From NCBI GenBank assembly GCA_947589735.1, contig CANQCR010000010.1, positions 1 through 56,519 of the forward strand: DNA of 56,519 bases. The letters are read 5' to 3'. The notes under the pieces were generated by a model. It had not been told where the DNA came from and ran no database searches. It saw only the letters and a list, made by a program, of their open reading frames with translations. Source of the DNA: an uncultured Bacilli bacterium (GTDB lineage: Bacteria > Bacillota_I > Bacilli_A > RF39 > UBA660). A program made the translations under genes and the position numbers. This document shows, piece after piece, positions 6,237 to 35,582 of the stretch; position 1 is the first letter of the stretch, and each line of letters starts with the position of its first letter.

Positions 6237-6262
6237 AAAAAAGTCTCTATAATTAGAGACTT
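6237..6262 (-). terminator. Terminator closing the secretion-system array
   Basis: The perfect stem AAGTCTCT/AGAGACTT (6241-6262) overlaps the stop codon of the coupling-protein gene and is followed by T6 on the minus strand. It marks the 3' boundary of the array that begins near 27 kb. Confidence 0.9.
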
Positions 6263-8504: not shown

Positions 8505-8518
8505 AATTACACCTCGCA

Positions 8519-10620: not shown

Positions 10621-10635
10621 TACTACCACCTCATA

Positions 10636-13243: not shown

Positions 13244-15031
13244 TTATAAACCGCCTCCACGGCCAAATGAGTCCAATTCTTCATCAGTAACCACAATATT
13301 AATCCGCATACGTCTACTACCACAAATAAACAATGCTTCTCCTTGTCCATATTTCTTAATACTTTCAACTTCACTCTCATTTAAATCCACCAGTCTAGCT
13401 AAATCGGTAGCAGCTTGCTTTTTTAAGCCCATTACTAAATAGTAAGAGGCATTATCAAATATAGCCTTACCTTGGGTAATAACTGCTGGATCACAGAAAT
13501 CGGTTGGTTGCTGTGTAATAATGATTGTTCCGGTGTTATACTTACGTGCACGTCTTTGAATTTGTGCTAAAAAGTCTGCACCTAAAACGTTCTTATCACT
13601 AAGTAAAACGTGAGCCTCATCAACCATTAAAATTGTATTACGCTTAACATCAAGAGTTAAACTCCATGCATACTTTAAAACGTTAAAGAACAAAGCATTA
13701 CGAATGTTAGCATCAGAGTTCATTAACTCACGAATATTAAAGACAATAAAGTCACTATTAGTAGCAATTGTCGTATGACCATCAAAATAATAACGCAATT
13801 CTTTTACCAATGGTCTAATCTTTAATTCAAGGCGCTCTAAAATATCACGTTCTTGCGTTCTTTCAGGCATTGATAAAAGTTTACCTTTAACGGTTGCATA
13901 AACATCTTTAAAGGTTGGATAATCTCTCGAGGTTAACTTTGTAAAATCAGTATCAAAATTAATACTAAATCTTCGATATGTCTCTTGAACAATTTCACTA
14001 AACATATTAAGGACATCCTCTTCAACTGATGGATCATAATATTTTAAGAAGGCTTTAACAGATTGAATGGTTCTTGTAAATGTCGTATATCCTAATCCTT
14101 GTTTAACTTCTTCTTCATCAACATCCATAACAACTTCAAGGGGATTAATCATACCAAACTTACCACCTTTACCAAGGCTAATGAAATCACCATCGTAAAG
14201 GCTACACATATCCTCTAACTCACCCTCTGGATCAATAACAACTAACTGGTAATTATTACGTATATGCGTTCTAAGTAATAATTTAGCAGCAGTTGACTTA
14301 CCACTACCAGAAGTACCTAAGATAATCATGTTGGCATTATTTCGGTTATGTTCTTTTTTCATTTGATATAAGAATTGATTAAATAAAATAACACCCCCTG
14401 AAAAATCAATACCAAGTAGCGTAGAAAGGCCTGGATCTTTGATACTATCAAAGATAAAAGGATACATTGCAGCTATAGTTGGAGCTGGTATTGGGGTTCC
14501 AATACGATCCTCTAAATCTTGTTTTCCATAAATTGGAAGCATTGACTTTAAAACTTTGTCTTGTTCAAAACGAAGAGGGATAGCTTTCATTTCCATAGCT
14601 TCCAAATAGTTTTTCAGTTGTAGCTTTTTCAAAACCAATTCATCTTCGGAATTCGCAGTAATCATAATATGCATTTGAAAATCATATATTTTAGCCTGAG
14701 TAGCTGCTAATTCGGATACAAATTGTTCCAAAGAAGCATAATCCTGTTTGATACGCTCTTGAATCGTCTTATCTTTTTCTTCCTGATATCTCGCCTTTAA
14801 ATCAGCAATTTCTTTATTAAGCATTTTTTGAATAGTACTAAATGGTAAAGGTATATGCTTGATAACTAATTTAACACCAGACATTGACGTTAAAGATGCT
14901 AAATAACCAGGATATATATACTTTGGGTAACTAATAACTGTCAAAATTGTGGCATATTTATCGCTAATTACAAACTCAGCAGGTTTAAACTCTAGCCCCT
15001 TAGGAGCTATTTGACTCTTTATATCCATCAT
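13244..15031 (-). CDS. virB4: VirB4-type secretion ATPase
   Basis: VirB4 ATPases energise assembly and transport in all type IV secretion systems. The 595-residue protein begins with the Gram-positive VirB4 entry motif IAPKGLEF, followed by a conserved CagE/TrbE-like N-domain. The P-loop is GTSGSGKST (239-247), Walker B is NTILMVDEAH (465-474), and the late motif GTIIITQQPTDF follows. Its ATG overlaps the stop of the preceding TraC-like gene (ATGA), so the two proteins are translationally coupled. The usual extra N-terminal domain of longer VirB4/TraC proteins is encoded by that separate gene. Confidence 0.95.
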   Translation of the reverse strand: MMDIKSQIAPKGLEFKPAEFVISDKYATILTVISYPKYIYPGYLASLTSMSGVKLVIKHIPLPFSTIQKMLNKEIADLKARYQEEKDKTIQERIKQDYASLEQFVSELAATQAKIYDFQMHIMITANSEDELVLKKLQLKNYLEAMEMKAIPLRFEQDKVLKSMLPIYGKQDLEDRIGTPIPAPTIAAMYPFIFDSIKDPGLSTLLGIDFSGGVILFNQFLYQMKKEHNRNNANMIILGTSGSGKSTAAKLLLRTHIRNNYQLVVIDPEGELEDMCSLYDGDFISLGKGGKFGMINPLEVVMDVDEEEVKQGLGYTTFTRTIQSVKAFLKYYDPSVEEDVLNMFSEIVQETYRRFSINFDTDFTKLTSRDYPTFKDVYATVKGKLLSMPERTQERDILERLELKIRPLVKELRYYFDGHTTIATNSDFIVFNIRELMNSDANIRNALFFNVLKYAWSLTLDVKRNTILMVDEAHVLLSDKNVLGADFLAQIQRRARKYNTGTIIITQQPTDFCDPAVITQGKAIFDNASYYLVMGLKKQAATDLARLVDLNESEVESIKKYGQGEALFICGSRRMRINIVVTDEELDSFGRGGGL

Positions 15032-15579
15032 GATAACACCGTCCCAAACTCAGTGGTAACACCACCATTTAAGAAATTGTCTAGAATCATTCTTAAATCA
15101 TCATTAGTTGTTTGAAATGCTGTTAAACCTGCATTAGCAAAGTTGTTAATTAAATTCCTAATTCGTTTATTAATTGTATCATCGTTCTTTTCTTTAAATA
15201 GTAAGAAATATTCTGTATCTACAACATTATTATTCATAAACATATTAGCCTTACTTAAGTCTTGATTAATAATTTTTCTTCTAGCAGGATCTGTTGTTTT
15301 ATTATAAAGTAATTCTAATTCTGATAAGTAAACATTAATATCTACTGGTCGATCAGCTACAACAATCCAGAATTCATAGTCAATAACATTATAAACAGTT
15401 TTTAAATTAGCTATAATTGCATCCTGCATATTAGGATCTAGTATGAAAATATTACGAGGCATTATTTTAACACCCGTAACCTTTAAATTATCTCTTCCTT
15501 CAAGGTATATAACACCATTAGTTATACTCTTTATAGGAATATCATCATTTGTGAATTTGCTCACTGTCTTCTTCGCCAT
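15028..15579 (-). CDS. TraC-like N-domain protein (VirB4 partner)
   Basis: This 183-residue soluble protein resembles the N-terminal TraC-like domain that precedes VirB4 ATPases in some systems. It starts with a strand-rich region (IPIKSITNGVIYLEGRDNLKV), then helical segments and no signal peptide or membrane helix. Overlap with virB4 by ATGA and with the upstream PrgI-like gene by 35 bases shows tight coupling. It has no P-loop, so it is probably a structural partner of VirB4 at the inner face of the membrane. I see no frameshift: both genes have sound starts and stops, so the split looks natural. Confidence 0.72.
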   Translation of the reverse strand: MAKKTVSKFTNDDIPIKSITNGVIYLEGRDNLKVTGVKIMPRNIFILDPNMQDAIIANLKTVYNVIDYEFWIVVADRPVDINVYLSELELLYNKTTDPARRKIINQDLSKANMFMNNNVVDTEYFLLFKEKNDDTINKRIRNLINNFANAGLTAFQTTNDDLRMILDNFLNGGVTTEFGTVLS

Positions 15580-15874
15580 TTAAGAAACACCAACCTTTCC
15601 ATATATATTGTTGCCTTGTTGTATAAAATGTATAAGCAAGGCCAATTATCGTTCTTATGTTATGATAATTCGGTATTGGAATAACTAAAACGCCAGTTGT
15701 AACTCCTGGTACTAACGCCATAATCGCATACTTTAATTCATCGACAGGAAGTAGCATTAGAAGTAGAAGCGAAGCTCCCACTCCTAATCCAAATAAAATT
15801 AAATCCGTCTTGTTAAATATCCCAAATATCAACATTGATTTTTTAGAATTGGCCGGTATTAAATATCCACCCAT
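15545..15874 (-). CDS. PrgI/VirB3-like inner-membrane protein
   Basis: The 109-residue protein carries a short N-terminal segment (IPANSKKSMLIFGIFNKTD), two closely spaced membrane helices (about 25-45 and 48-65), and a cytoplasmic tail. This is the layout of PrgI/VirB3 proteins, which sit directly upstream of VirB4 in Gram-positive type IV secretion clusters. The ribosome binding site GGGGATGTG lies 6-10 bases before the ATG. Its stop lies inside the next gene, consistent with coupling. The assignment rests on size, topology and position. Confidence 0.8.
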   Translation of the reverse strand: MGGYLIPANSKKSMLIFGIFNKTDLILFGLGVGASLLLLMLLPVDELKYAIMALVPGVTTGVLVIPIPNYHNIRTIIGLAYTFYTTRQQYIWKGWCFLNGEEDSEQIHK

Positions 15875-15898: not shown

Positions 15899-18052
15899 TT
15901 AATGACCTTTTCCACCAGGTTTACCGCCAGGTTGAATTTGGCCAGCAGCTATTATATCTGAATTAGCAACTTCCATATCACCCTTGTTCCTTTTGGCAGC
16001 ACCTTCAACACCAGTTAAACCACCATCATAAGTTATTTCAGTATATCCGCCTACATCCTTACCAGATTTATTAGCAGTGGCAACAGCAGAATCAAGATTG
16101 CGTTGATAAGCTCTTAATTCTTTTCTTCCTTCAGCACCAATTCCACTAACATCGGTTCCATTCCGAACGTCAGATGCTACATCATTAACCCATTTGTCTA
16201 AAGCTCTCTTGGTGTCTTCTCTTGCTTGGGCATCACCAGTTTGAACTGCAGCTTCATATTCTCTTTTTAGCCTTTTACCGGTCTCACTCATGGCAGTTAT
16301 TTTATCAAAATATTGTTGTTGAGCATCAAGAACATGTTGATTAGCAGAAGTGGCAAGATTAAGTCGTCTTCCTGTTCTTCCTTCAGCAGCACGTACATCA
16401 GAAGCATCTAAACCTTGTGCACGAGCTTCCTTAAATTGCAAGTGTCTTTGATGCCCTGCACTATATGAATTTGCGAAATTCTTACCAAATTTGTCACCAC
16501 GGAGACCGCCTACAATAGCTTTACCTAGGGCCCCCCTATGAATACCTTGTCCAGTCATAAAACCAGCTGCTCCAACCAAACCGGCTGTTCCTAGTCCTGC
16601 TCCAAGTCCAACAGCTTTTCTTCCTACACCAGCTATTGCCTTTCCTCCTAATGCTTCATCTCCAATACGTTTCAACGGATTAAGAGTAAATTTGCCATCA
16701 CCCTTAATACTGAAGATTTCCTTGATAATATCTGGTAATTTTTTAACAAAAATTAACACACCAAGTATCATAAATACATTAACAAGTGGATTAGAAACAA
16801 GATCTCCAGTAACAACATCTCTAAATGAGCCAACTAAACTTATAACATAAATTCCAAAATATAGTGCCGCTAGTCTAAAAAACAAATCCAAATATGTCGT
16901 CACACACATTTTAGTCCATCGTTGAAACATTCCGTCTTTGCTAGACTTCGGATCACAATATGACAAAATTGGAATTGGAGCTATCATCTGTAAGAAACCA
17001 AGTTTTACAGAACGAATAGCCACATCAATGCAAAACATTAATAATAAATAAATAGTTGCAACTCCTACAGCTGTACTGACACCCATCTTATAATCAATAA
17101 AATATCTAGCCGTAGCATCACCATTATCATCAATTCCTACTGGTTCACTCTCCCTAGCTAAAATAACATTCTTTTTAAACATCATATCAAAATTCTGATA
17201 TGCCACTCCGTTGGCATAATCTTGATATACTAAACCTAATTCACTATTATCAAATAATTTTTTTAAGTGCCCATAGCTTTCAAGACCTTTAAGTTCTTCA
17301 TAGCTATCATCGTCTAGTGCCGGTGCTCCATCATCACCATCCGCAAGATAGATATGTTGCGTCATATCGTAATATCCAAAGCAAGATGGGTTAAGTTGAT
17401 ATATGAACATTGATCTTTCATCACCAGTTGTATCTAATTTTCTAAATACATAGTCACCAACCGAAGCCTTACCATTTTTAACATCAGCATAATCATTTGA
17501 ATATGTATCATATGGATGACGACAATCAATTAAATCAAATTCACTATTACCAGTAAATTCTTCAAAATTAGGCTGAGCAAAGTTATACATAATCGTAAAC
17601 TGCATTCTTTCCCCAGCTGTCTCAATATAAGATTGTCCCGATATAGAAGAAGTATCAGTTCCTTGTGGAACTCCAAAAACTAAAGCCATCAAAGTGTTTT
17701 CCTCTAAAATTATTGATTGTAGCTCAAATGCCTCTGTAAAAACATATGGTAGTAGTACAATCATAACAAGTGACAATATAACCCTTTTTACAATTTGCGA
17801 AAAACCTTTTTCTTTATCAGAAAAGTCATCTGGATTAATGACATAGTTTATTAAAGATACGCTTATTTTAAATAGCATAAAAATACCAATTAATGCATAA
17901 ATTCGTTCAGCAAAAGCATTTATTGATGATTGTGAAAAAATAGATGTTCTAGCTAGCTGAATTAGCAAACCATACACATCATCAATTAAGCCATAAACGA
18001 CTTTATCTAGCGAAAAAAACAAAGTTTTAAAAACTCTAATTACAAATTCCAT
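15899..18052 (-). CDS. VirB6/TrbL-like polytopic channel protein
   Basis: The 717-residue protein has several membrane helices in the N-terminal half, including MFCIDVAIRSVKLGFLQMIA and the polar-aromatic motif PIPILSYCDPKSSKDG that resembles the conserved loop of VirB6/TrbL proteins. A large exported loop (about 125-320) contains Cys residues. From about residue 470 the protein becomes Gly/Ala-rich and then a charged, mostly helical cytoplasmic tail ending in a Gly/Pro/Lys stretch. VirB6 proteins form the inner-membrane channel. It precedes the PrgI-like, TraC-like and VirB4 genes in the usual order. Confidence 0.85.
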   Translation of the reverse strand: MEFVIRVFKTLFFSLDKVVYGLIDDVYGLLIQLARTSIFSQSSINAFAERIYALIGIFMLFKISVSLINYVINPDDFSDKEKGFSQIVKRVILSLVMIVLLPYVFTEAFELQSIILEENTLMALVFGVPQGTDTSSISGQSYIETAGERMQFTIMYNFAQPNFEEFTGNSEFDLIDCRHPYDTYSNDYADVKNGKASVGDYVFRKLDTTGDERSMFIYQLNPSCFGYYDMTQHIYLADGDDGAPALDDDSYEELKGLESYGHLKKLFDNSELGLVYQDYANGVAYQNFDMMFKKNVILARESEPVGIDDNGDATARYFIDYKMGVSTAVGVATIYLLLMFCIDVAIRSVKLGFLQMIAPIPILSYCDPKSSKDGMFQRWTKMCVTTYLDLFFRLAALYFGIYVISLVGSFRDVVTGDLVSNPLVNVFMILGVLIFVKKLPDIIKEIFSIKGDGKFTLNPLKRIGDEALGGKAIAGVGRKAVGLGAGLGTAGLVGAAGFMTGQGIHRGALGKAIVGGLRGDKFGKNFANSYSAGHQRHLQFKEARAQGLDASDVRAAEGRTGRRLNLATSANQHVLDAQQQYFDKITAMSETGKRLKREYEAAVQTGDAQAREDTKRALDKWVNDVASDVRNGTDVSGIGAEGRKELRAYQRNLDSAVATANKSGKDVGGYTEITYDGGLTGVEGAAKRNKGDMEVANSDIIAAGQIQPGGKPGGKGH

Positions 18053-18076: not shown

Positions 18077-19252
18077 TTATGCGCAGAATGGATTTTCAGC
18101 ATTTAATCCAGGAATATTAAACATTTTCAAAATAAAATCTAATATGAAAGGTATTATAAATATTAAAGCTGCAGCAATTATCCTTTTGGCAAATCTTGTA
18201 GTAACTTTTCTCATTTCATCATCATTTTCAGAGGCTATAGCTTTAATAAAGTCCAATATACTAAGTATTATCAATAAAGCGGGAAGTCCATATCTTACAA
18301 TGCGGATAATACGAAAAATCCAATTGACAACCTTATTTCCTAAAGAACCACAATAACCACCTTGCTTAACATTCATGTTGCACATTTTAGCGATATCATC
18401 GTTAAATTTTGCACAATCAACTTGACATTGATCAGCTACACCATCAGAATTCATATAACTATGGGAAGTAATGTATCCACTGCAAGCATCCCGAAGCTTT
18501 TGATACTGGCGAGAAAAATCAGAGTTTCCCTCACATGCTTTTCCACCTCGTAAAGAGGTGGAAACATCATCAAGATAAAAGCCATAAAAATTACATACCC
18601 CATTTTCACCTACGCTATCCTTAAATGACTCCTCTACTAAAGTATCACCATCACCTATAGACTCATCAGTAAAAAATATACGCATTACATATCCATATGA
18701 ATCCCAAAAGTCATAATGGAAAGGGGTCTGATAATTTTCTGGATCCGGCATATATCTAATACTTTTTTTACATCTTTCATTTCCACTTTTACCATAATAA
18801 TTCTTAGCATCATCTTCCCTAAAAAAATATTTTGATATAAAATAAATATCTTCCCAACTGCCCGTAAGATCGTCATTAGCGTATGATTCCTTTTGACCAA
18901 GCCAAATTCTTGCACCAGGCAATTGCTGTACAATTGTAGGTTGATATTCCGCAAAGTCAGACTTTCCATCAGAGTCTAATTCCTCAGCATCAGTAATAGG
19001 GTCCCCTAATCCACCATTATCTAAGACAGCCTTTTCTTTCAAACCAAAAACAATTGAAGGTTCATAATTTTCTGTCATTTTATTATCTTTTAATTGAAAC
19101 GATAATGTAACATATGGTTCCCATTCGTCATCGCTGTTTTTCTTTCCATATGTACAGGTATAATAATCTCCAGATTCTGAATAAGCATTAACTTCATTAA
19201 TAGTTAAAAATATAGTAATAATAATCGTCATAAATGGTATTAGTTTTTTCAT
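18077..19252 (-). CDS. Two-helix core membrane protein (family member A), VirB2-like
   Basis: A signal peptide (about 1-24, ending VNA-YS) leads a roughly 270-residue Cys-containing exported domain. The C-terminal core is shared with five other genes nearby: YCGSLGNKVV, a membrane helix with LPALLIILSILDFIKAIAS, the charged turn ENDDEMRK, a second helix, and a Cys near the end (ENPFCA). It departs from the others in the turn (ENDDE instead of QKEDE) and lacks the CxNCF tail, so it is the most diverged member. It is separated from member B by a terminator and preceded by a TATAAT box, and it sits directly before the VirB6-like gene. The topology, not sequence proof, suggests a VirB2/TrbC-type pilin or a related subunit. 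Confidence 0.78.
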   Translation of the reverse strand: MKKLIPFMTIIITIFLTINEVNAYSESGDYYTCTYGKKNSDDEWEPYVTLSFQLKDNKMTENYEPSIVFGLKEKAVLDNGGLGDPITDAEELDSDGKSDFAEYQPTIVQQLPGARIWLGQKESYANDDLTGSWEDIYFISKYFFREDDAKNYYGKSGNERCKKSIRYMPDPENYQTPFHYDFWDSYGYVMRIFFTDESIGDGDTLVEESFKDSVGENGVCNFYGFYLDDVSTSLRGGKACEGNSDFSRQYQKLRDACSGYITSHSYMNSDGVADQCQVDCAKFNDDIAKMCNMNVKQGGYCGSLGNKVVNWIFRIIRIVRYGLPALLIILSILDFIKAIASENDDEMRKVTTRFAKRIIAAALIFIIPFILDFILKMFNIPGLNAENPFCA

Positions 19253-19302
19253 CACTTCTAACCCCTCCTTATTTTAGGGTACACTACTAACAATATTATA
19301 GC

Positions 19303-19332
19303 AAAAAAAAACTATTAAATAAATAGTTTTTT
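19303..19332 (-). terminator. Terminator between family members B and A
   Basis: The stem AAAAAACTATT/AATAGTTTTTT (about 19306-19332) is followed by a T-run on the minus strand. A TATAAT -10 box (19295-19300) follows immediately, with only a weak -35, so member A and the secretion genes may have their own start or depend on read-through. Confidence 0.75.
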
Positions 19333-19341
19333 GTCTTTTTA

Positions 19342-19746
19342 TTACATACCTGTTGTTCCTCTAGCTACTAAACTACAGCCATTAGCTCCAACTTCACCAT
19401 TAACAAAGCAGTTAAAGCAGCTCATAACAGTATCATCATCACCTGATACAAATCCAATAAGCACTTTTACAATTGTAATTACAAAGAAGACTATCAAAGC
19501 AGCAATAACACGTTTTACAAGTGTTTGTTGACCTTTCTTTATTTCATCCTCTTTTTGTGCCATAACAGCTTTAGCTAAATCTAGCGAACCAAATATAACT
19601 AATAATACTGGTACAGCAATCCAAATAACTTTTACTATCAATGAAACGACATTAGGAATCATTCCACCAAATTCAATTCCAGCACTACCGCATTGATAAG
19701 ATGCTTTAGTATTAATAGCATCCAAAACATTAATCAAATTTAACAT
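19342..19746 (-). CDS. Two-helix core membrane protein (family member B), minimal form
   Basis: This 134-residue protein is almost only the shared core: CGSAGIEFG, a first helix with AVPVLLVIFGSLDLAKAV, the turn AQKEDEIKKGQ, KRVIAALIVFF in the second helix, and CFNCF with a final Cys. It has no clear cleavable signal peptide and no large ectodomain, so it shows the minimal unit of the family. In size and helix layout it resembles VirB2/TrbC pilins. It is the only member with a perfect consensus promoter directly upstream and a terminator directly downstream, so it is expressed as a single-gene unit, as expected for an abundant subunit. Confidence 0.85.
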   Translation of the reverse strand: MLNLINVLDAINTKASYQCGSAGIEFGGMIPNVVSLIVKVIWIAVPVLLVIFGSLDLAKAVMAQKEDEIKKGQQTLVKRVIAALIVFFVITIVKVLIGFVSGDDDTVMSCFNCFVNGEVGANGCSLVARGTTGM

Positions 19747-19772
19747 ATTACACGCATCCCTCTCTCAAACCG

Positions 19773-19807
19773 ATTATACTATAATTGACAAAGATTGTCA
19801 ATTATAG
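19773..19807 (-). promoter_or_regulatory. Perfect consensus promoter embedded in a 13-bp palindrome
   Basis: On the minus strand there is a -35 TTGACA (19796-19801), a 17-base spacer and a -10 TATAAT (19773-19778). All 12 core bases match the sigma-A consensus with ideal spacing. A 13-bp perfect inverted repeat with a 3-base loop (arms CTATAATTGACAA and TTGTCAATTATAG, 19779-19807) covers the spacer and the -35 and abuts the -10. It begins right after the stop of the upstream gene. There is no T-run after it, so it is more likely an operator than a terminator. Confidence 0.88.
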
Positions 19808-19808
19808 T

Positions 19809-21047
19809 TTACTCACTTACCTCAGCAACAATATATGGATTTTCCATTGTTCCTTCACCAGATAAGAACTTTTCATTGGCATTAAAAGCTATAACCCAAT
19901 TATAATAAGTTCTCTCCCTAGCATTTAATCTAGAAGCGACACCACCATTAATGTTAACCGCTTCGTAGGTGTTTTCTTTAAGGCCCGTGGAAGTCCATGT
20001 TTGAATTGTAGCATTTGTAAAGAAATTATAATTCGTACAAGCACCATTAGTAATGGATGTACAATGTTCATCTAATGAAGCAATAGCATAGTCTGCTGCA
20101 TTAATTAAACCAATATATTGATTTTCTAATTTTACAGAACAATCAATAGTATCATCAACCTCTAACTCATTAGCGCCTCTTTTACCAACACAGACATCAT
20201 AAGATGCTAAATGAAGTTTCGTTGTATCTTTAAATGCTTTATATTTAGAGTTTAATTCTTTAAGAATATCACTATTCTTATAATCATTTATCCCCCAATT
20301 TTTTCCTACTTCGCTATTAAATTTCATATCCCAAGCTGCCTGTCTATTTTCGGATTCAGTTTTAATAACTCTCATAATACCCTCGTTGTTAATATCGATG
20401 ATACGCCACAAGAATCCACCAAAGGAAACATAATTTTTGGGGTTTTCTCCTCTAAAAACATATCTATCGCCCATTTGGTATAAACCTGAAGTGTAATCCT
20501 TTCCAAGATCTTGTTGATTGGAGTTTGACGCATCAGGATCAACAACGACCTGATTATTATCACTATTAACGTTACTGACGGCGACATTTGACTGCAAATT
20601 AGAAGTTTCATCTTCAACTTCATCAGATGGGACATCTTCAGGCTCTTCTTGAATTAAGCTATCTTTTTTTACTTGATCTACAAAGTGATTAGTTTTATAT
20701 TCCGAACATACTAAATCTGGAATATAAAGATATTGCCCACTATAATTATAAACAGTAACTTTACCATTGCATGTCGCATCAGCTATAAGCTTTTCCATAG
20801 GCTTTAAGAACTCTGCAGTAATCAATTCTGAAGTTGTTACCGTTTTATTCTCAAACTCTTCAGGCAATTTTTGATCTTCACTATTGAAATATCTTTCCGC
20901 AGCTTTGAGCATTTGACGCTCAACTTTTTCATAATCACTACCAGGGCCACTACATGCTTTTACAATCGCAAGGATAGCAATGACTAAAACAATAACTCCA
21001 AAAATACCAGCAACAATATACAAATATTTTTTATCTATTTTCTTCAT
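19809..21047 (-). CDS. Membrane-anchored exported protein with FGGxLWRI domain
   Basis: The 412-residue protein has a basic start, one membrane helix (about 10-30, ending at Cys), a helical region, an Asp/Glu/Asn-rich linker (about 135-185), and a C-terminal globular domain. That domain begins YTSGLYQMGDRYVFRG with the motif NYVSFGGFLWRIIDIN, followed by Cys-bearing loops and a YYNWVIAFNANEKFL end. Domains with a similar NYVxFxxxLWRI opening occur in exported proteins of low-GC gut bacteria. I do not know their function. It interrupts the tandem series of two-helix core proteins, so it may be a surface component of the same apparatus. The palindromic promoter of the next gene starts one base after its stop. 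Confidence 0.75.
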   Translation of the reverse strand: MKKIDKKYLYIVAGIFGVIVLVIAILAIVKACSGPGSDYEKVERQMLKAAERYFNSEDQKLPEEFENKTVTTSELITAEFLKPMEKLIADATCNGKVTVYNYSGQYLYIPDLVCSEYKTNHFVDQVKKDSLIQEEPEDVPSDEVEDETSNLQSNVAVSNVNSDNNQVVVDPDASNSNQQDLGKDYTSGLYQMGDRYVFRGENPKNYVSFGGFLWRIIDINNEGIMRVIKTESENRQAAWDMKFNSEVGKNWGINDYKNSDILKELNSKYKAFKDTTKLHLASYDVCVGKRGANELEVDDTIDCSVKLENQYIGLINAADYAIASLDEHCTSITNGACTNYNFFTNATIQTWTSTGLKENTYEAVNINGGVASRLNARERTYYNWVIAFNANEKFLSGEGTMENPYIVAEVSE

Positions 21048-21080
21048 ATTATCACCATTATAATTTTCTATGTGAATAAA

Positions 21081-21491
21081 TTAGCCGCAAGATCCTGCTG
21101 AAGCTCCTTCGATGAAGCAGTTAACACAATCGAATATTGTACTATTAGAATCACCTGCAACAGAACTAATAATAAACTTAACTATTGCAATAACAAAGAA
21201 TACTAAAACGGCCGCAATAACTCTCTTGATAAACACCTGTTGTCCCTTTTTGATTTCATCTTCTTTTTGTGACATCATACCCCTAGCTAAATCTAGCATA
21301 CCAAAAATAACTAAAAGTATAGGTACAGCTATTTGAATTATTCTTATAATGATATGAACTAGGTTAACAATTGATTCATCAATTACCGCGTCACCTAATG
21401 CTGTACAAGTTATATCCGCAGCATGTACATTAGTACTAAACGTAAATAAGCAAACTAATAGCAATAAAGCAAAACCTATCTTTTTTTTCAT
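21081..21491 (-). CDS. Two-helix core membrane protein (family member C)
   Basis: This 136-residue protein has a cleavable signal peptide (about 1-24, ending VHA-AD), then directly the family core: TCTALGDAV, a first helix with AVPILLVIFGMLDLARGM, the turn SQKEDEIKKGQ, FIKRVIAAVLVFFV, and DCVNCF with Cys at the C-terminal end. It is close to member B in the core but exported by a signal peptide. After signal cleavage it would be about 112 residues, in the size range of VirB2-like pilins. GGAGG precedes the start by about 10 bases. Confidence 0.85.
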   Translation of the reverse strand: MKKKIGFALLLLVCLFTFSTNVHAADITCTALGDAVIDESIVNLVHIIIRIIQIAVPILLVIFGMLDLARGMMSQKEDEIKKGQQVFIKRVIAAVLVFFVIAIVKFIISSVAGDSNSTIFDCVNCFIEGASAGSCG

Positions 21492-21509
21492 ATATATTTC
21501 TACCTCCTA

Positions 21510-22205
21510 CTAACATTTATATCCATCAGGTTCTGATATAAAGCAATTGACACATGACATAATATTTCCTGTATCAGAGCTTAATAAACTAATAACGAAC
21601 TTGACTACTGCAACTACAAGGAAAACCATCACACCAGCAATAAGTCTTTTAATAAATATCTGTTGACCTTTTTTGATTTCATCTTCTTTTTGTGATGCCA
21701 TACCTCTAGCCAAATCTACCATACCATAAATAACTAATAAAATTGGCACTAAAAGTTGCATAATTACTATAACATAATGAACGATTCTTGCCAACTGACG
21801 ATCAAATTGGACGTCAGTTCCAAAAGCTACACAATAAAAGTTATCTGAACTATCTTGAGTGACGCCAGGTGATGTATTAGTTCCATTATATGTTGTAATT
21901 GCATAATTACCATTACTATCTTCTTTTATAGTAGAACCAGAAATAGATACATAACTAGGGCATCTTTCAAGTTGAACATCAAATTGCCCGGTTACATCAG
22001 TCTGAGTAATAGAATCATCACTACCAGTTGGCCTACTAGTTTCTTTAACTACTTGTCGAGCATTCATCTCATCATCAAACTCAATAATGTAAGTGATGTT
22101 TTGAGAGCCTGGATTTCTAAGTGAATAACTACAGGTTTTATCAGCGTATACAGAAGCATTAAATAGTAAGAATGTTATTATAAAAAATAATATTTTTTTT
22201 GTCAT
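21510..22205 (-). CDS. Two-helix core membrane protein (family member D)
   Basis: This 231-residue protein has a signal peptide (about 1-21, ending VYA-DK) and an N-terminal ectodomain of about 110 residues that begins with CSYSLRNPGSQNITY and predicts beta strands. The family core follows: FYCVAFGTDV, helix one LVPILLVIYGMVDLARGM, SQKEDEIKKGQ, FIKRLIAGVMVFLV, then SCVNCF. The ectodomain opening (TCSYS, then a strand pair and DVTGQFDVQL with a following Cys-Pro) is echoed in member E (TCRYS, DITGSYDVMF, Cys-Pro-Pro). D and E therefore share an ectodomain fold as well as the core. It begins 18 bases after the stop of C's neighbour with GGAGG upstream. Confidence 0.85.
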   Translation of the reverse strand: MTKKILFFIITFLLFNASVYADKTCSYSLRNPGSQNITYIIEFDDEMNARQVVKETSRPTGSDDSITQTDVTGQFDVQLERCPSYVSISGSTIKEDSNGNYAITTYNGTNTSPGVTQDSSDNFYCVAFGTDVQFDRQLARIVHYVIVIMQLLVPILLVIYGMVDLARGMASQKEDEIKKGQQIFIKRLIAGVMVFLVVAVVKFVISLLSSDTGNIMSCVNCFISEPDGYKC

Positions 22206-22216
22206 AATACCTCCAA

Positions 22217-23029
22217 TTACTCATCAGTAACAGCCTGTCCAGTACCGATTTTAGGGTCCTCAGTACTTGATGAACTTTGACTACATTTGTTATTCACAAA
22301 GCAATCAACACAAGCCACAATTCGCATAGAATTACCCCTGCCACCAACTAAATTAATTAACATTTTAACAAGTAATACTACTAAAAACGTAATTGTACCC
22401 ATTATCAGTCTTTTTACCAAGGAAGATCTACCCTTACGCATTTCGTCTTCTTTTTGAGATATTATTCCTTTTATTAAATCTATCATACCAAAAAGAATCA
22501 TAATAACTGGTACTATAACCATCGCAATATTATACAAAGAATTAGAAATTCTTGGAATAATAGCCGGAATATGTTTTATTAATGCCAAGCTACCAGATCC
22601 ACCACAACTAACATAGCTTTTTTCTAAAAAATCAGCTCTATTAGAATCATTAAAAACTTCACTATGTGGATTATATGATGTATCTAATGTATAAGAACCA
22701 TCACTATCTTCAGAACCTTCGACCATTTGAGGTCTAGAATATTGACTTCCCGATCCCTTAATTTCCATAAAAGGAGGACAATTTGCACTAAACATGACAT
22801 CATAACTGCCCGTTATGTCTGTAGGGTTTTCTGGATCGTCGCTATTTACTAGCAAAATTGATGTAGGAAGACCACTATCATCAAAAATAATATCATAGGA
22901 GTACGTTTTATTCTCATTAGTATCGAAAATTTTAGAATATCTACAAGTTGAAGATGCAGAAACACTTTGCGTAAATAAGAAGAAAAAGAAGAAAAAAGGT
23001 GCAACCAATAAAATATTTTTCTTTTTCAT
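22217..23029 (-). CDS. Two-helix core membrane protein (family member E)
   Basis: This 270-residue protein has a signal peptide (about 1-25, ending VSA-SS), an ectodomain of about 115 residues related to that of member D (TCRYSKIFD, DITGSYDVMFSANCPP), then the core. The core contains SCGGSGSLALI, helix one with VPVIMILFGMIDLIKGI, the turn SQKEDEMRKGR, LVKRLIMGTITFLV, and ACVDCF. A Ser-rich tail follows. The turn carries M-R in place of I-K, and CVDCF in place of CVNCF. It lies between members D and F with only short gaps, so it is co-transcribed. Confidence 0.85.
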   Translation of the reverse strand: MKKKNILLVAPFFFFFFLFTQSVSASSTCRYSKIFDTNENKTYSYDIIFDDSGLPTSILLVNSDDPENPTDITGSYDVMFSANCPPFMEIKGSGSQYSRPQMVEGSEDSDGSYTLDTSYNPHSEVFNDSNRADFLEKSYVSCGGSGSLALIKHIPAIIPRISNSLYNIAMVIVPVIMILFGMIDLIKGIISQKEDEMRKGRSSLVKRLIMGTITFLVVLLVKMLINLVGGRGNSMRIVACVDCFVNNKCSQSSSSTEDPKIGTGQAVTDE

Positions 23030-23033
23030 ATCA

Positions 23034-24515
23034 TCACTCCATTTGACAATAACTACTTCCAGTTCCTTGTAAAAAACAATTAATACATGGAATAATTTGC
23101 GTGTCAGCCATACTACTTACTATACTTATAACAAGCTTAACAATCGCAAAAACAAAGAATACCATTACTGCACCAATTAATCTTTTAAAGAATGTACTTT
23201 GCCCTTTTTTGATTTCATCCTCTTTTTGAGAGGTGATAGCTTTAACCAAGTCCAATATTCCCAGTATTATAACAACTAGTGGTACTAAAAATTGCAAAAA
23301 ATTATATATAGTGTGAACTAATCTAATAAATGTGGATGGTAATCCGGTAATAAAGTCACCACCGCAACTATATGTAGCTAGATCATTTTCCAAGCTTCCT
23401 ACATTAGCCTCAATTTCTGGATTGTTCTCATTTTCGCTACTACCACTATTATTTCCAGTAATAAATATTTGTTGACATCCGGCTGTATAGGTTTTATAGT
23501 TAGAATAAGTTGAGGCAATCGCTTTAGTAATTTTATCATAATTTGATGCGTCCGATAGATAAAGTCTTGCTTCACCAGTTTTCATTCCAACAATTGATTG
23601 ATACCATTCAGTATTTGGATCAACAGCTAGAATCATATAGTCAGGGCATCTGTTTGGTGTGGAACTATTAGTAAAATAATCCATATATGTAAATGTTGTA
23701 TGATTTTTAAATTCATCCGGTAATTTGCTCCAATTTAAAATGCTTTCTGATTCACTATTACCACCGGTAAGATTAGTATTAAGATTAATCGTTGGCGAAT
23801 TTAAATCACCTTTTACATTGACAACTCCCTCAAGGTATGTACCATTATCAAAAGTTGCTTTACATTGGCAAGATATAGCATGAAGAGTTGGCTGAGCTCC
23901 GTTAGCATTAGAGTCATTCGAATCATTTGAATCACTTGATTCAATTTCAGATAGTCCAGCTGGACCAATCGTTTCAGATTTAAAAGGATATACAGCAGGA
24001 TTAAAGGTACGGAAAACCTTATCGTCTTCAGCGGCTTGTACAATTGCTCTATTAACATTTGTATTAAGTTTATTCGTAATTGCTACTGTTTCATTATCAT
24101 TCAAATCAAAAGTATAAAAATTAGTACCATCATCTTTGAAGAAGAAAAGGGCTGCACCAGTTTCATATCCAGCATATAAAACGGCCGGAGGGCAAGTTTG
24201 GCCAGACGATTTAAAAACCTCACCTGCATAGAAATTTCCAGCTTCGCTTGTAGTATAATTTTTAGAAACATGATTTTTATCCCAATTCCCATAAGTATGT
24301 TTATCGCCTTTTATGGTCTTTGGTAAATTAACAGACTCTACTTTTATTTGTTGAAAATCTTTCATAATGGAAACTGATATTTCTTTATTAGGAGAAGAGT
24401 AACCATAAGTACATGTTTTATATATATTACTATCACTTGCTGCATTTACCTTATTTATCCCTAAAAACACGACAAAAACTATTAAAATAATAGTTTTTGT
24501 TAATTTCTTACTCAT
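23034..24515 (-). CDS. Two-helix core membrane protein (family member F), long ectodomain
   Basis: This 493-residue protein is the largest member. A signal peptide (about 1-25, ending VNA-AS) is followed by an ectodomain of nearly 360 residues containing several Cys residues and a short Asn/Asp/Ser repeat (SDSNDSNDSN). The family core closes the protein: YSCGGDFITG, helix one LVPLVVIILGILDLVKAI, SQKEDEIKKGQ, FFKRLIGAVMVFFVFAIVK, and PCINCF with a Cys near the end. The ectodomain start CTYGYS recalls members A (CTYG), D (CSYS) and E (CRYS). It follows tadZ with an 18-base gap and is the first of the tandem series. Confidence 0.85.
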   Translation of the reverse strand: MSKKLTKTIILIVFVVFLGINKVNAASDSNIYKTCTYGYSSPNKEISVSIMKDFQQIKVESVNLPKTIKGDKHTYGNWDKNHVSKNYTTSEAGNFYAGEVFKSSGQTCPPAVLYAGYETGAALFFFKDDGTNFYTFDLNDNETVAITNKLNTNVNRAIVQAAEDDKVFRTFNPAVYPFKSETIGPAGLSEIESSDSNDSNDSNANGAQPTLHAISCQCKATFDNGTYLEGVVNVKGDLNSPTINLNTNLTGGNSESESILNWSKLPDEFKNHTTFTYMDYFTNSSTPNRCPDYMILAVDPNTEWYQSIVGMKTGEARLYLSDASNYDKITKAIASTYSNYKTYTAGCQQIFITGNNSGSSENENNPEIEANVGSLENDLATYSCGGDFITGLPSTFIRLVHTIYNFLQFLVPLVVIILGILDLVKAITSQKEDEIKKGQSTFFKRLIGAVMVFFVFAIVKLVISIVSSMADTQIIPCINCFLQGTGSSYCQME

Positions 24516-24533
24516 AATATCACCTCGTATGAT

Positions 24534-25547
24534 TTAGTTATTAGCTTGTAAATCAAACCCTAAACGAACTAAGAAGTCATTCAACATCTTATTTCTCGTT
24601 TCACGTTCATCTAAAGGTGGCATATTATAGAATATTTTAAGTCTTGACTCATATTCAAAATCCATTACATCTTTAGAACTTAATAAGCTTTGATTTAATA
24701 TAACCTTTTTATCTTTTAACGTTTTTAATGTTTGAGGGGTAACCATCATAAGTTTATTTAATTTAATTGTTGTAGGTTCGATTAAGTAAATGATTTCATT
24801 ACATAGTGATTCTGCTTGAACACTATTATTGACGTCGATTAAAATGACATCACTACCGGTAAATCTTCCTACCTCTTGCATAATTGATCCACTAATCGCT
24901 GAAACTAATGTATTATCTTTCATGTAAGTGAAGTCGGTTTTATCAACTTCAATAGCTGTAACCTTATAGTTGCGAGATAATTCATTATACATCATATATA
25001 CAAGTGTTGTCGCACCTGCACTTTTAGTAACATTTTTAATACCAATAATATGACTATGTTGTCCACCGGTGTAGGTTGGAGCTGTCATTACTTGTTGGGT
25101 TGGAACAGGGCTAGGTGCTTGAACTTGTGGTGTATTAACAGTTGGTTGTTGAACGACAACAACATCATCAATCTGATGGAACTGTGCCACATCACGATAT
25201 GAATTTGGATGATTATACAAATATTGTATACCCTCTAAATTACGGGTGAAATTGTAAATACCCATTGATATTAATTTTGATAAATAAGCTGGTGAAGAAC
25301 TCTCAGCTGAATCATCAAGTAATAAAATAATTTTATCCATATCAAGGGATATTGATAATTTTTGTAAGTTTCTAATATCTTTATAATCACGAATGGCCGT
25401 TATATCTAAGATCATACGTTGATAAAAGAAATTTTGGAAAGTGCTAATAATCTCATCAACATCAAACTCACCGTTTAAGCTTTTAATAACATCAATGCCT
25501 AAATTTTCTAGTAACAATTGATACTTATTAGAAACAATAACGTTCAT
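24534..25547 (-). CDS. tadZ: TadZ/CpaE-like atypical ParA-type ATPase
   Basis: TadZ localises Tad pilus machinery at the membrane or pole. The 337-residue protein has an N-terminal receiver-like alpha/beta domain (about 1-115), a Pro/Gln/Thr-rich linker (about 125-165), and a MinD/ParA-type domain from about 168. Its P-loop region KSAGATT (about 178-184) lacks the second Lys of active ParA proteins. The GATT form is typical for TadZ/CpaE. The rest shows ILIDVNN and MMVTPQTL as Walker-B-like and switch-like strands. It lies between the pseudopilins and the two-helix family. Confidence 0.82.
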   Translation of the reverse strand: MNVIVSNKYQLLLENLGIDVIKSLNGEFDVDEIISTFQNFFYQRMILDITAIRDYKDIRNLQKLSISLDMDKIILLLDDSAESSSPAYLSKLISMGIYNFTRNLEGIQYLYNHPNSYRDVAQFHQIDDVVVVQQPTVNTPQVQAPSPVPTQQVMTAPTYTGGQHSHIIGIKNVTKSAGATTLVYMMYNELSRNYKVTAIEVDKTDFTYMKDNTLVSAISGSIMQEVGRFTGSDVILIDVNNSVQAESLCNEIIYLIEPTTIKLNKLMMVTPQTLKTLKDKKVILNQSLLSSKDVMDFEYESRLKIFYNMPPLDERETRNKMLNDFLVRLGFDLQANN

Positions 25548-25576: not shown

Positions 25577-26083
25577 TTAACTGTCTAAAAAGTCATACAT
25601 AACTTTGGTTTCTCCTCGAACCGGGAATTCAAGAAAACCTCCAAAAACTGGTACATCGAATTTCATGTAAGCAATAACTTGGTAATATCTAGAGTTGGAC
25701 TCTTTGCTAACAACAGTCCCAGCCTCTTTACCAGGCTTTGTATCACCATTATATCTAAATACGCAATAGTGATAGTGCTTTGTTTCTGATTCTTTCTCAC
25801 TTGGATAAACAAGTGTTGCACCGACTTTATCTTTAGCTAAATTTTTGCATTTGTTGATATCTGTTTGGTTAACAACAGTATATCCTGCGCTCTTTAAGTT
25901 TTCCTCAATTTCCGATTTGGCAGCGCCATTAAAATCACCATATTTTTCAATTATGGTTATGATTCTGTTTTTTACCTTGTAAGCTTTAGAATAATTAATT
26001 GAGCCAAATAGTAATAGAACTAAAACAACAAAGAAAAATAAAATTAAATTCAAAATAAACGCTTGAGCTATTGACTCTTTCAT
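25577..26083 (-). CDS. TadE/TadF-like pseudopilin (1)
   Basis: The 168-residue protein starts MKESIAQAF directly followed by a strong hydrophobic helix (about 9-30), then an exported domain with two Cys residues and a final strand (RGETKVMYDFLDS). It is related to the next upstream gene: both have the M-[K/R]-E-S start, a NYSKAYKVKNRII/SYYKAYRINNAIV segment, YxYCVFRY/RGYCVYRY, and a closing strand. This is the layout of TadE/TadF minor pseudopilins in Tad loci. No cleavable leader precedes the helix. Confidence 0.75.
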   Translation of the reverse strand: MKESIAQAFILNLILFFFVVLVLLLFGSINYSKAYKVKNRIITIIEKYGDFNGAAKSEIEENLKSAGYTVVNQTDINKCKNLAKDKVGATLVYPSEKESETKHYHYCVFRYNGDTKPGKEAGTVVSKESNSRYYQVIAYMKFDVPVFGGFLEFPVRGETKVMYDFLDS

Positions 26084-26100
26084 CTTATCACCTCTAAAGT

Positions 26101-26622
26101 TTATTCGATTGGTCTAGTAATGAACTGATATAATCTTGATGTTCTAGAAAAAACACGCAACTTTAGTAAATCCTGTGCGACAGGAAATCTAAAAGTTACA
26201 ACAGTCATTACTTCGTAAGTGTCATACCAATCACTGCTAGCTGCACCGCTTCCTTTTGCTTTATAGGAAGTATCGTTAGCATAACGATAAACGCAATATC
26301 CACGTTTATTGTAATCAGTTGATGGTTTTACCTTTTTGCCTTGACTTGTATAGTCAACTAAATAGCCAGTCTTTGAACCACTATTAACTTCACTAGGGCA
26401 ATCAAAAGGTACTCTTTCATACGTAAAACTTGCTAGTTTTTGATTAATCTCGTCATAAGAAAGTTGATTGAAGCCTTCATACTTCTCAATAGAAGTAACA
26501 ATCGCATTGTTAATACGATAAGCTTTGTAATAGCTTAAGGTTCCAGCAAGAAATGCGAATACCAATAAAATATAAAATATAACAAAATTTAATAAGGAAA
26601 CCGTTCCTATACTTTCTCTCAT
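26101..26622 (-). CDS. TadE/TadF-like pseudopilin (2)
   Basis: The 173-residue protein starts MRESIGTVSLL with an N-terminal helix (about 7-28), then SYYKAYRINNAIVTSIEKYEG, which matches the neighbouring pseudopilin-like protein. An exported domain contains DCPSE, GYCVYRY and a terminal strand SRTSRLYQFI. It probably arose by duplication with its neighbour and would be a minor subunit of the Tad pilus. It follows the Flp-like gene by 35 bases, with GGTGAG upstream of the start. Confidence 0.75.
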   Translation of the reverse strand: MRESIGTVSLLNFVIFYILLVFAFLAGTLSYYKAYRINNAIVTSIEKYEGFNQLSYDEINQKLASFTYERVPFDCPSEVNSGSKTGYLVDYTSQGKKVKPSTDYNKRGYCVYRYANDTSYKAKGSGAASSDWYDTYEVMTVVTFRFPVAQDLLKLRVFSRTSRLYQFITRPIE

Positions 26623-26657: not shown

Positions 26658-26909
26658 TTATTCACCACTAGCTCTATCACCAATTGATGCACTTACGCAT
26701 GAATTGTATGAGTTTTCATCATAATCTTGGCTACCAGTAGCAGATGTACATTTAGCGCTAATCCATACACCACCAGCATCAGTACAACAAGATCTTCTTG
26801 CTGAGTTCTTCATTAAACTATTTATCAATGGTGTAGCTACAGCAACTACAACCGCGATTAAAATAATTGCAACTACAGTTAAGTTTGCTTCTCCAGCTGC
26901 TTCTTTCAT
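26658..26909 (-). CDS. Flp-like major pilin candidate
   Basis: This 83-residue protein has a hydrophobic helix at about 10-32 preceded by MKEAAGEAN, then a short Cys-containing C-terminal domain (SCCTDAGGVW, KCTS, SCVSAS). Small size, the N-terminal helix and its place as first gene of the Tad-associated operon fit an Flp-type pilin. The cleavage motif of classical Flp prepilins (G followed by a conserved E-Y pair) is not evident. The four Cys residues are also unusual for Flp. Two promoters precede it and GGTGGTGAG is its ribosome binding site, consistent with strong expression. Confidence 0.75.
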   Translation of the reverse strand: MKEAAGEANLTVVAIILIAVVVAVATPLINSLMKNSARRSCCTDAGGVWISAKCTSATGSQDYDENSYNSCVSASIGDRASGE

Positions 26910-27141: not shown

Positions 27142-27927
27142 TTAGAATTGCATCAACTGCATCATTGATAAGAACATAAGAGCCATACAACCACAACCTG
27201 TGAACACTAACATGATCAAAGTCTGATTTTCCATAGCTTCTAGACGTTCTTTATATTTTTGCTCACGAGCTTTATTCTGTAAAGATGAAACCGTTCGTGA
27301 GAAAGACATTACTTGTTCATGCTTATTCTGTTGTCCGCCTAATCCTAAACGATATAGTAAACGCATCATACGCATTGAATCACGAACGGGATATTCGTTA
27401 GCGAAATCGATATATGGTTGAATAGAAGAATCACCACTATCGATACGAGCAACTAATCGTCTTAGACCTGGTTTAAATACATCAGGAGCAGCATCAATAC
27501 TACGGCTTAGGGCAACGGGAACAGTATAATGTTGAACTAAGATTTCCAAACTCTTTAAATAGTATGGTAACATTGTATCAATGTAATGCAAATTGGCTTT
27601 ATAATATTTCTTTAAATTCATATATGATGATTTAAAAACTAAATAGCCGACACCGCAAGCAATAACGGCATACATCATACTCATTTGATTCATGAAAATG
27701 AAGAAACATAAAACGCCAGCAATAATACCATCTCTTAAACGTCTTTGGAATAACGCTCCAACATCTAAATTACGTCCAGGATATTTTACTGATAATAAGA
27801 ACTCGTAGTCTTCTTCCATTAAATGGCTTAAAACACCACCAGTATCACTGATAAACTTTTTTGTATCAACGACACGGTTATAATTTAATACGAAGACAAT
27901 AATTACACCTATAAGTATAAACCACAT
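27142..27927 (-). CDS. tadC: TadC-like pilus platform protein
   Basis: This 261-residue GspF/T2SSF-domain membrane protein has an N-terminal helix, a helix pair near 70-110, a cytoplasmic helical domain (YYLKSLEILVQHYTVPVALS, then GLGGQQNKHEQVMSF), and C-terminal helices ending MALMFLSMM. TadB and TadC form the inner-membrane platform on which the CpaF ATPase drives pilus assembly. The start codon overlaps the tadB stop (TAATG). Last gene of its operon. Confidence 0.88.
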   Translation of the reverse strand: MWFILIGVIIVFVLNYNRVVDTKKFISDTGGVLSHLMEEDYEFLLSVKYPGRNLDVGALFQRRLRDGIIAGVLCFFIFMNQMSMMYAVIACGVGYLVFKSSYMNLKKYYKANLHYIDTMLPYYLKSLEILVQHYTVPVALSRSIDAAPDVFKPGLRRLVARIDSGDSSIQPYIDFANEYPVRDSMRMMRLLYRLGLGGQQNKHEQVMSFSRTVSSLQNKAREQKYKERLEAMENQTLIMLVFTGCGCMALMFLSMMQLMQF

Positions 27928-28832
27928 TATTCAGCACCTACATTCTCATTATAATATTTTTCACCACGAAGTAAGAAATATGAATTAACAATCAATATTG
28001 CATGTACTAAGATTTGAACATACCATATATCAAGTAAAGCATCCCATTTTTCTGGACCTAACATAAATTGAAGTAACATACACATAAAGTATAAGATGAC
28101 ACCGAATTGAAGGAATTTCTTATGGAATGTTGCCCGATCAATACGGTCCCGATATACACCTTCAACCAATGTATCGATATCCTGAGACATATTTTCAAGT
28201 GATTCTGCAGTATCTTTAGCACCTTCGTTAGTTATTTGTAAGAATAGATAGTGCATATTTTTTACAATGTAGAAATCGTACTTAGTACTCATGAAAGTCA
28301 ATGACTGATCAATTGTACCATTTTCATATGCCATATCAATCATAACTTTAACATCAGTTTTAACAGGATCTTCTAGAATGCCAGAATTATATACACCCTC
28401 AATAGCTTTTACGAAAGATTGCGTTGTCGCAAACTCCATAATTGTATTAGAGGTATATACCTGTATTTGTTCAAAGATAAACTCACTATATAATCTTTTA
28501 CAACGTAGGTAATTTAAGTATGGAATTACTGCTACTGCGGCAAGAGCATAAATAATTGAAATTAATAAATTGTAGAAATATAAATATGTTATTACAGCAG
28601 CACCAATGGCAAACCCAATAGCTTGCATAATGTATTGATGCAAAGTATAGTCTTGACCAAGGTCTTTAATCTTTTCTCTTATAGATTTATAAGTATATGG
28701 TGCGAAACGATCATAGATAAATTGCGTGTTCTCAGCTACATACTTATATAAGTTTTGACCACTGGCTTTTCGATATACAACAACGAAAATTGCAATTAAC
28801 GCTATTAATATGAAAACAACTAAAGTTAGCAT
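27927..28832 (-). CDS. tadB: TadB-like pilus platform protein
   Basis: This 301-residue T2SSF-domain protein has an N-terminal helix, two central helices (about 68-105), a cytoplasmic domain with FATTQSFVKAIEGVYNSG, and two C-terminal helices near 245-290. It is the partner of TadC in the assembly platform. It lies between cpaF and tadC in the standard Tad order. AGGAGGTGG is an excellent ribosome binding site. Confidence 0.9.
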   Translation of the reverse strand: MLTLVVFILIALIAIFVVVYRKASGQNLYKYVAENTQFIYDRFAPYTYKSIREKIKDLGQDYTLHQYIMQAIGFAIGAAVITYLYFYNLLISIIYALAAVAVIPYLNYLRCKRLYSEFIFEQIQVYTSNTIMEFATTQSFVKAIEGVYNSGILEDPVKTDVKVMIDMAYENGTIDQSLTFMSTKYDFYIVKNMHYLFLQITNEGAKDTAESLENMSQDIDTLVEGVYRDRIDRATFHKKFLQFGVILYFMCMLLQFMLGPEKWDALLDIWYVQILVHAILIVNSYFLLRGEKYYNENVGAE

Positions 28833-31127: not shown

Positions 31128-31547
31128 TTACTGACTTACATATTTCGTCTCTAGAATAGCATCAATACGATTCATTAAAGCAATTCTAGTCTGCTGTGAA
31201 CGTATTGAGAACCAAGCTGACATATCAAAAGTGCTTAAGTTGATACTTACTTTTGGTGGTTCTTCATGAACATCATAAATATCAATTTGATATGTATGAG
31301 CTAGGGTTGCATCTTCAGCAAAGCGGCGATAGAAGCTTGCAACGAATTTTTCTTGATCAATTCTAATTGTTTGATCATTTCGATAAGCTGGCAAATCCAA
31401 AGCATCAAACATAGCTGCCTCCGTTGTTTCCTTTAACAGTTCATAGTTGTGTTCGCTCGTATTTGTGACTGTTTGAAAGTAATAAACCAAAAAAATTGAT
31501 ATGATACCCAAACCAACAATCAACACTGCCCAAAAAGATTCTTTCAT
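31128..31547 (-). CDS. Small pilin-like membrane protein, first gene of the Tad motor operon
   Basis: This 139-residue protein starts MKESFWAVLI, with a membrane helix at about 5-25 and an exported domain of about 110 residues with no Cys. The MKES start matches the pseudopilin-like genes at 25577-26622, though the exported domain is different (no Cys, helical). It could be a minor pilin or an assembly accessory protein. AGGAGGTGA is a strong ribosome binding site. A hairpin/dyad abutting a TATAAT box lies upstream. Confidence 0.7.
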   Translation of the reverse strand: MKESFWAVLIVGLGIISIFLVYYFQTVTNTSEHNYELLKETTEAAMFDALDLPAYRNDQTIRIDQEKFVASFYRRFAEDATLAHTYQIDIYDVHEEPPKVSINLSTFDMSAWFSIRSQQTRIALMNRIDAILETKYVSQ

Positions 31548-35481: not shown

Positions 35482-35582
35482 CAGATATCCCCTCACATAC
35501 TATATTTCTTTATTTTCATTCTCTTCTATTATTTCACATTATTATCTTTTTCTTAAGGTATTTATATTACCCATATAGAGTC

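Follow-up and report, generated by a model that had tools for sequence, protein, structure and literature searches.

We analysed a stretch of 56,519 nucleotides (contig CANQCR010000010.1 of GenBank assembly GCA_947589735.1; hereafter the window) from an uncultured Bacilli bacterium of the RF39 lineage, in which six open reading frames (ORFs), A to F, encode paralogous membrane proteins resembling pilins of type IV secretion systems (T4SSs). In agreement with the initial annotation, the six related ORFs were found at positions 18077-24515. Every one is on the minus strand, and they lie between Tad-like pilus genes and T4SS-like genes of the same operon. A (18077-19255) comprises a signal peptide, an ectodomain of about 275 residues with a variable N-terminal and a Cys-rich C-terminal part, and the pilin core. 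B (19342-19746; 134 residues) is a minimal pilin core without signal peptide or ectodomain, a lack that had been missed earlier, while A and C-F all have signal peptides. In C (21081-21491) the signal peptide is followed by the core only, D (21510-22205) and E (22217-23029) carry homologous ectodomains in front of it, and F (23034-24515) combines a conserved signal peptide with two tandem CxY..NW..CPP ectodomains and the core. Between B and C lies X (19809-21047, minus strand), a single-transmembrane protein that is not a pilin paralogue; used as a membrane-protein negative control, it gave phmmer E values of at least 0.1 against all six members. X has a large outside part without Pfam match, and is kept between C and B throughout the genus and in some other genera.

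All 15 pairs of A-F are related in an all-against-all phmmer search (E 6e-10 to 6e-39). The common region spans some 90-110 residues and consists of an invariant cysteine, helix 1 with a conserved proline and a G..D.. motif, a charged turn (KEDE[IM][KR]K), helix 2 and a tail. Several details of the core that had been noted from the sequence were recovered: the turn QKEDE[I/M][K/R]KG occurs in five of the six members (B-F), with ENDDEMRKV in A, and the two-helix architecture is reproduced by an AlphaFold2 model of B (66 sequences; mean predicted local distance difference test score, pLDDT, 82), where helices 29-62 and 66-100 flank the turn as a hairpin. The proposed Cys-Gly lead-in is correct as to the cysteine, with the glycine present in only four of six members (CT in C, CV in D), and the CxNCF-like tail is seen as CxxCF in B-F, A terminating in NPFCA instead. 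In the AlphaFold2 model of F the core is likewise well defined (pLDDT about 90) and the ectodomain poor (mean pLDDT 59.6), and this low-confidence ectodomain model was excluded from the fold search.

PF18895 (T4SS_pilin) weakly matches all six window cores, with E values from 0.00013 (member E) over 0.00033 (A) to 0.33, and reaches up to 24.4 bits in a search of the window's own genome. Among 124 relatives it is the most frequent Pfam match (50 members, best 3.6e-7, compared to 14 for the next families). Its cut-off is passed in 14 of 38 same-family genomes (best 42.1 bits) versus 9 of the 258 genomes from the rest of the class, a comparison that served as a specificity test, and several of the places over cut-off coincide with matches of the window-core profile. 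The NCBIfam model of the pilin-like Mbov_0395 matches the pilins very weakly (E 0.1-0.14), and there are weak matches of the core to the unrelated membrane families 7tm_1, DUF621 and MscL. As to the fold of solved VirB2 pili, VIA-align comparisons of the B model returned generic helical hairpins only. Matches of the core to rhodopsins, gap-junction and designed proteins in sequence searches of solved structures were judged spurious.

Within the array, B stands apart in its regulatory surroundings. It is preceded by a perfect 12/12 match to the sigma-70 consensus (TTGACA-17-TATAAT; 19773-19801, minus strand), conserved across the family and one of only three perfect promoters in the whole window, and is followed directly 3' by an AT-rich, intrinsic-terminator-like hairpin with a T-run (19306-19333, minus strand). 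Of 49 non-redundant loci, 33 have a promoter of 11/12 or better upstream of B (12/12 in 18), and 27 have a terminator downstream of it. The corresponding promoter count is 0-1 for TadZ, VirB6, PrgI, VirB4N, VirB4 and X, and 16 of 86 for the other short pilins, none of them perfect; the Flp-like gene has an 11/12 promoter upstream, at 26970. In addition, the core identity of B to its orthologues (63-82%) is the highest of all members. As far as such sequence signals can tell, B would be made in excess, as expected of a major pilin. Its own promoter and terminator, the lack of signal peptide and ectodomain, and the highest conservation together indicate that B is probably the major subunit. This differs from the earlier proposal of possible pilin or tip variants: instead of being interchangeable, the members fall into orthologous classes kept genus-wide, with B singled out by promoter, terminator and absence of an ectodomain.

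The expectation of a conserved core joined to divergent ectodomains was borne out. Compared to their orthologues, cores are 45-82% identical and ectodomains 23-35% (A and F) or 16-42% over short stretches (E). Similarly, the nonsynonymous difference (pN) in A and F is approximately 0.40-0.56 in the ectodomains versus 0.12-0.33 in the cores; with synonymous sites near saturation, these values demonstrate fast change and do not prove positive selection. The common ectodomain that had been suggested for D and E is confirmed by BLAST (33% identity over the whole length), and the link holds with signal peptides removed. In F, a CxY…NW…CPP domain occurs twice in tandem (hhalign 97%), and the ectodomains of A and F start with the same CxY motif as those of D and E. 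Homology between the D/E, A and F ectodomain groups was not significant in hhalign, the two repeats of F excepted. Unlike its positional orthologues in three species, which are devoid of an ectodomain, D bears one of the E type, suggesting that an ectodomain was transferred between paralogues. Unusual conservation, synonymous sites included (synonymous difference, pS, 0.07-0.40), is seen where the signal peptide of F is encoded. This segment harbours an inverted repeat with a 13-bp stem (24472-24501, minus strand), which shows hardly any nucleotide differences among nine genomes of the genus. The hairpin after B resembles this repeat in sequence. A search of the genome for silent donor cassettes of the F ectodomain found none.

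The core is not confined to the operon. Four more copies are encoded elsewhere in the same genome, on contig 7 (L006:10534-13329) and contig 11 (L007:1058-2176), with C-terminal extensions that comprise, one each, an M23 peptidase (E 1e-25), a weak GDSL match, an unassigned domain, and none. Family-wide, pilin-core proteins also match GDSL, M23, GDPD, C39 and YkuD. With N-terminal ectodomains in the operon and C-terminal enzyme-type domains elsewhere, the core is thus a common base to which varied exposed domains are joined on either side. A topology with both ends of the core outside the cell and the turn inside is suggested by three features: the presence of signal peptides in A and C-F, the charge of the turn, and the C-terminal enzyme domains of members outside the operon.

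The array set is specific to the family, being present in 35 of 38 same-family genomes and in 0 of 258 genomes of other families in the class. The named relatives are metagenome-assembled genomes, and their isolate names indicate rabbit, rumen and goat samples. A core tree resolves orthologous classes A, B, C/D, E and F across the genus (108 columns; many forks unresolved), which also keeps the gene order F-E-D-C-X-B-A. More distant genera usually have one or two short pilins, and many add one with a large ectodomain. The earlier idea of a T4SS-pilin-like subunit that was repeatedly duplicated and diversified in its exposed part is supported by the hairpin model, the PF18895 matches, the VirB6, PrgI-like and VirB4 neighbours and the contrast between conserved cores and divergent ectodomains. 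In 52 of 52 non-redundant loci that have TadZ and VirB6 on the same strand, the interval between these two genes holds nothing but pilins and X; as the loci were selected by their pilins, this result shows position, not frequency. Of 41 genomes, 33 have a VirB4 match, mostly 67-79% identical across genera and almost always as one such copy. Relaxases over cut-off occur in 5 of the 41 genomes; in several relatives their neighbours are VirB4 genes that are separate and divergent. In the genome of the window, a single MobP-type relaxase (PF03432, E 1e-36; G000:C4:1988-2353) lies on another contig, unconnected with the operon. B had no match in 72,556 plasmid records, and the core profile none in viral contigs. 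The conservation of VirB4 across genera, the location of relaxases elsewhere and the lack of plasmid or viral relatives are more consistent with a chromosomal system inherited vertically than with a mobile element.

Based on these data, we propose with moderate confidence that B and decorated minor subunits form a VirB2-like filament or collar on a VirB6/VirB4 base, beside a Tad-type pilus. A-F would represent paralogous subunits, related to PF18895, of a T4SS that is chromosomal, lacks a relaxase and shares its operon with the Tad-like pilus. The core is presumably inserted as a hairpin, with the KEDEIKK turn on the inner side and both ends on the outer. Driven by its own strong promoter and delimited by the terminator, B would supply most subunits of the filament or collar, while A and C-F, made in smaller amounts, may co-assemble as minor subunits. 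In this arrangement, A and D-F would display their N-terminal ectodomains on the outer surface, and members encoded outside the operon would likewise display C-terminal cell-wall-type enzymes. The fast-changing ectodomains may then bind varying partners, e.g. neighbouring cells, host glycans or phages.

A number of points weigh against this proposal. The six window cores score 11.5 to 22.4 bits with PF18895, each under its cut-off of 26.6 bits, and a relation to classical VirB2 is undetectable: the profile-profile comparison that had been suggested as a check, run with hhalign against a four-sequence alignment of TrwL (R388 and three relatives), gave only 0.1%, and a Foldseek search with the B model returned nothing significant. 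Furthermore, PF04956 (VirB2/TrbC) has no match at E<=1 in the window proteins, nor at E<=0.01 among the families listed for the relatives. The original view of a VirB2/TrbC-like subunit therefore stands in part. The label T4SS-pilin-like is supported at family level, through PF18895, the hairpin and the VirB6, PrgI-like and VirB4 neighbours, and membership in VirB2/TrbC is not. In addition, the promoter scores measure agreement with the consensus and not transcription itself, and such promoters are missing from some relatives; ectodomains of large size, reaching 570 residues in relatives, might be an obstacle to packing; and the filament is here a prediction from the genes.

The main competing explanation, which we regard as possible and clearly less probable, is that the core is a mere membrane anchor, with the subunits surrounding the VirB6 channel as a ring or patch, ectodomains and enzymes on the cell surface and no filament. 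It would be in line with the description of Gram-positive T4SSs as devoid of VirB2 pili (PMC12857230), with exposed parts that may exceed the core in size, and with the lack of direct VirB2 homology. However, a cargo-free minimal subunit with a strong promoter is better suited to repetitive assembly, and the relatives in PF18895 are annotated as pilins. Compatible with filament and anchor alike is a scheme of antigenic or binding variation, in which paralogues swap ectodomains by recombination and a population thereby varies its exposed surface. The E-type ectodomain of D, absent from its positional orthologues in three species, the elevated pN of ectodomains relative to cores and the unusual nucleotide conservation at the 5' end of F all speak for it. 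We nevertheless consider it tentative and rather unlikely: silent donor cassettes for the F ectodomain are lacking in the genome, the hairpin in F may be an RNA element, and the comparison of one genome per species revealed no within-population variation.

An ordinary Mollicute-type conjugative element (integrative and conjugative element, ICE), in the course of domestication or decay, could account for the matches of VirB4, VirB6 and the coupling protein to conjugation families and for the MobP relaxase on another contig. Yet the high identity of mostly single-copy VirB4 homologues across different genera, the association of relaxases in several relatives with separate, divergent VirB4 genes, and the missing plasmid and viral relatives render this improbable. 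Least likely, by a small margin, is that the core is a non-secretion membrane module, such as a receptor- or channel-like hairpin, whose placement in the operon is incidental. The weak matches to 7tm_1, DUF621 and MscL and the commonness of hairpins would allow for such a module, but PF18895 is matched far more often than the next families, and the placement between TadZ and VirB6 is invariant.

Returning to the filament or collar built mainly of B, the closest precedent is provided by the VirB2 arrays of Patescibacteria, from which the Bacillota case differs as a variant. Patescibacteria possess arrays of 2-11 divergent VirB2-like pilins, mostly without relaxases (PMC12102498), and the six-pilin array of Southlakia epibionticum is essential for epibiotic growth (reviewed in PMC12857230). 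As in the present operon, these are tandem divergent T4SS pilins, sometimes with a non-pilin gene inserted, near virB4, chromosomal and mostly relaxase-less; here, a single operon has up to six pilins, no more than about 12 kb away from VirB4, at a locus without relaxase. A further common trait is the additional presence of a type IV pilus in the cell. The differences, compared by description, are the occurrence in Bacilli, the Tad genes in the same operon and the one subunit with its own promoter, as well as the large N-terminal ectodomains and C-terminal enzyme fusions, again set beside the Patescibacterial pilins by description only. The Mollicute ICE genes Mbov_0395, Mbov_0396 and Mbov_0397 (pilin-like, VirB6-like and VirB4) represent the same three gene types; in contrast to that element, the operon has several pilins, a split VirB4 and a Tad module, and is chromosomal and relaxase-less. 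VirB2/TrbC proteins such as TrwL of R388 share a similar-sized two-helix hairpin and the vicinity of VirB3, VirB4 and VirB6, whereas TrwL has no conserved cysteines, ectodomains or multiple copies, all of which are present here, and no detectable sequence relation. Finally, Tad/Flp pili likewise have a TadA/CpaF-like ATPase and CpaB-like and Flp-like genes in one operon, but A-F are not type IV pilins.

Other T4SSs of Gram-positives are stated to lack VirB2, Patescibacteria excepted (PMC12857230, PMC12102498). A conserved pilin array across a Bacillota family would be a second case of VirB2-type pilins in Gram-positives, and a possible source of the Patescibacterial one. Searches of an open-access library gave no description of a Tad-T4SS operon or of an ectodomain-bearing pilin array in Bacilli or RF39. 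The proposal yields a testable claim on which subunit is major, presents the pilin cores as a scaffold on which adhesin-like domains and enzymes are displayed, and suggests joint work of a T4SS and a Tad pilus in uncultured small-genome gut bacteria. More speculatively, and with low confidence, this family of reduced-genome gut Bacilli might build from the one operon a two-part contact machine, in which a Tad-type pilus able to retract is paired with a VirB2-like filament of one major and exchangeable, adhesin- or enzyme-bearing minor subunits, and which grips and breaches neighbouring bacteria, paralleling the epibiotic type IV pilus and T4SS of Patescibacteria.

The operon itself forms a co-directional run in the order DUF5411, CpaB, TadA, TadB, TadC, Flp, two TadE/F, TadZ, the pilins with X, VirB6, PrgI, VirB4 (two ORFs), CHAP, a lipoprotein, SpoIID/C39, an LppM-like protein and the coupling protein, all features below being on the minus strand. 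Its first conserved gene encodes a DUF5411 protein (31128-31547; PF17424, 4e-47), followed by a CpaB/RcpC-like protein (30206-31093; TIGR03177, 1.2e-11, under cut-off) and a TadA/CpaF-like ATPase (28857-30176; PF00437, 5e-29), whose best solved match is CpaF and for which the NCBIfam VirB11 model scores slightly over the TadA model. This combination of a TadA-type ATPase and CpaB is the one that marks a Tad pilus. TadB, TadC, TadZ, PrgI, Flp and TadE/F are names given on position and topology only. The TadC- and TadB-like membrane proteins (27142-28832) were placed by position, no family match being obtained for the window proteins or their relatives; the Flp-like small pilin (26658-26909) was recognised by position and its leader MKEAAGEANLTV, the two TadE/TadF-like, pseudopilin-like proteins (25577-26622) by position and N-terminal helix, and the TadZ-like protein (24534-25547) by position and synteny, without family match. 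A prepilin peptidase was not found in the window's genome (a 95% complete assembly), an absence that is uninterpretable as 28 of 31 family genomes have one.

On the other side of the array, the VirB6-like polytopic protein (15899-18052) matches the Mbov_0396 family (NF045889, 1.1e-7), and VirB4 the Mbov_0397 family, these Mollicute ICE families being matched under their cut-offs. The PrgI/VirB3-like small membrane protein (15545-15874) was assigned by position, topology and synteny, with no family match. VirB4 is divided into an N-terminal part (15028-15579; NF045975 positions 98-276) and an ATPase part (13244-15031; NF045975, 1.5e-104, model positions 295-891), and these two overlapping ORFs recur in essentially all relatives. 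Downstream are a CHAP-domain cell-wall hydrolase (11325-13220; PF05257, 2e-9), a SpoIID and peptidase C39-like protein (9256-10629; PF08486, 7e-16; PF13529, 9e-13) and a VirD4-like coupling protein (6261-8519; NF045973, CD1115 family, over cut-off). VirB4, VirB6, a coupling protein and a cell-wall hydrolase are thereby united in one locus, as in Gram-positive T4SSs.

At the operon head, a 1238-residue, secreted-looking protein (31780-35496, minus strand) has no Pfam match; its relatives, all partial, occur in a few genera. Immediately upstream of the operon is an inserted DDE transposase (35752-37209, plus strand; PF13751/PF05598). Elsewhere in the genome (L007:12960-18263), paralogous membrane proteins are encoded in tandem beside genes for a clp-like ATPase and ribosomal proteins; they share a conserved N-terminal helix, a DYSSLTTDSGFD motif and a C-terminal CPNC..C..C.

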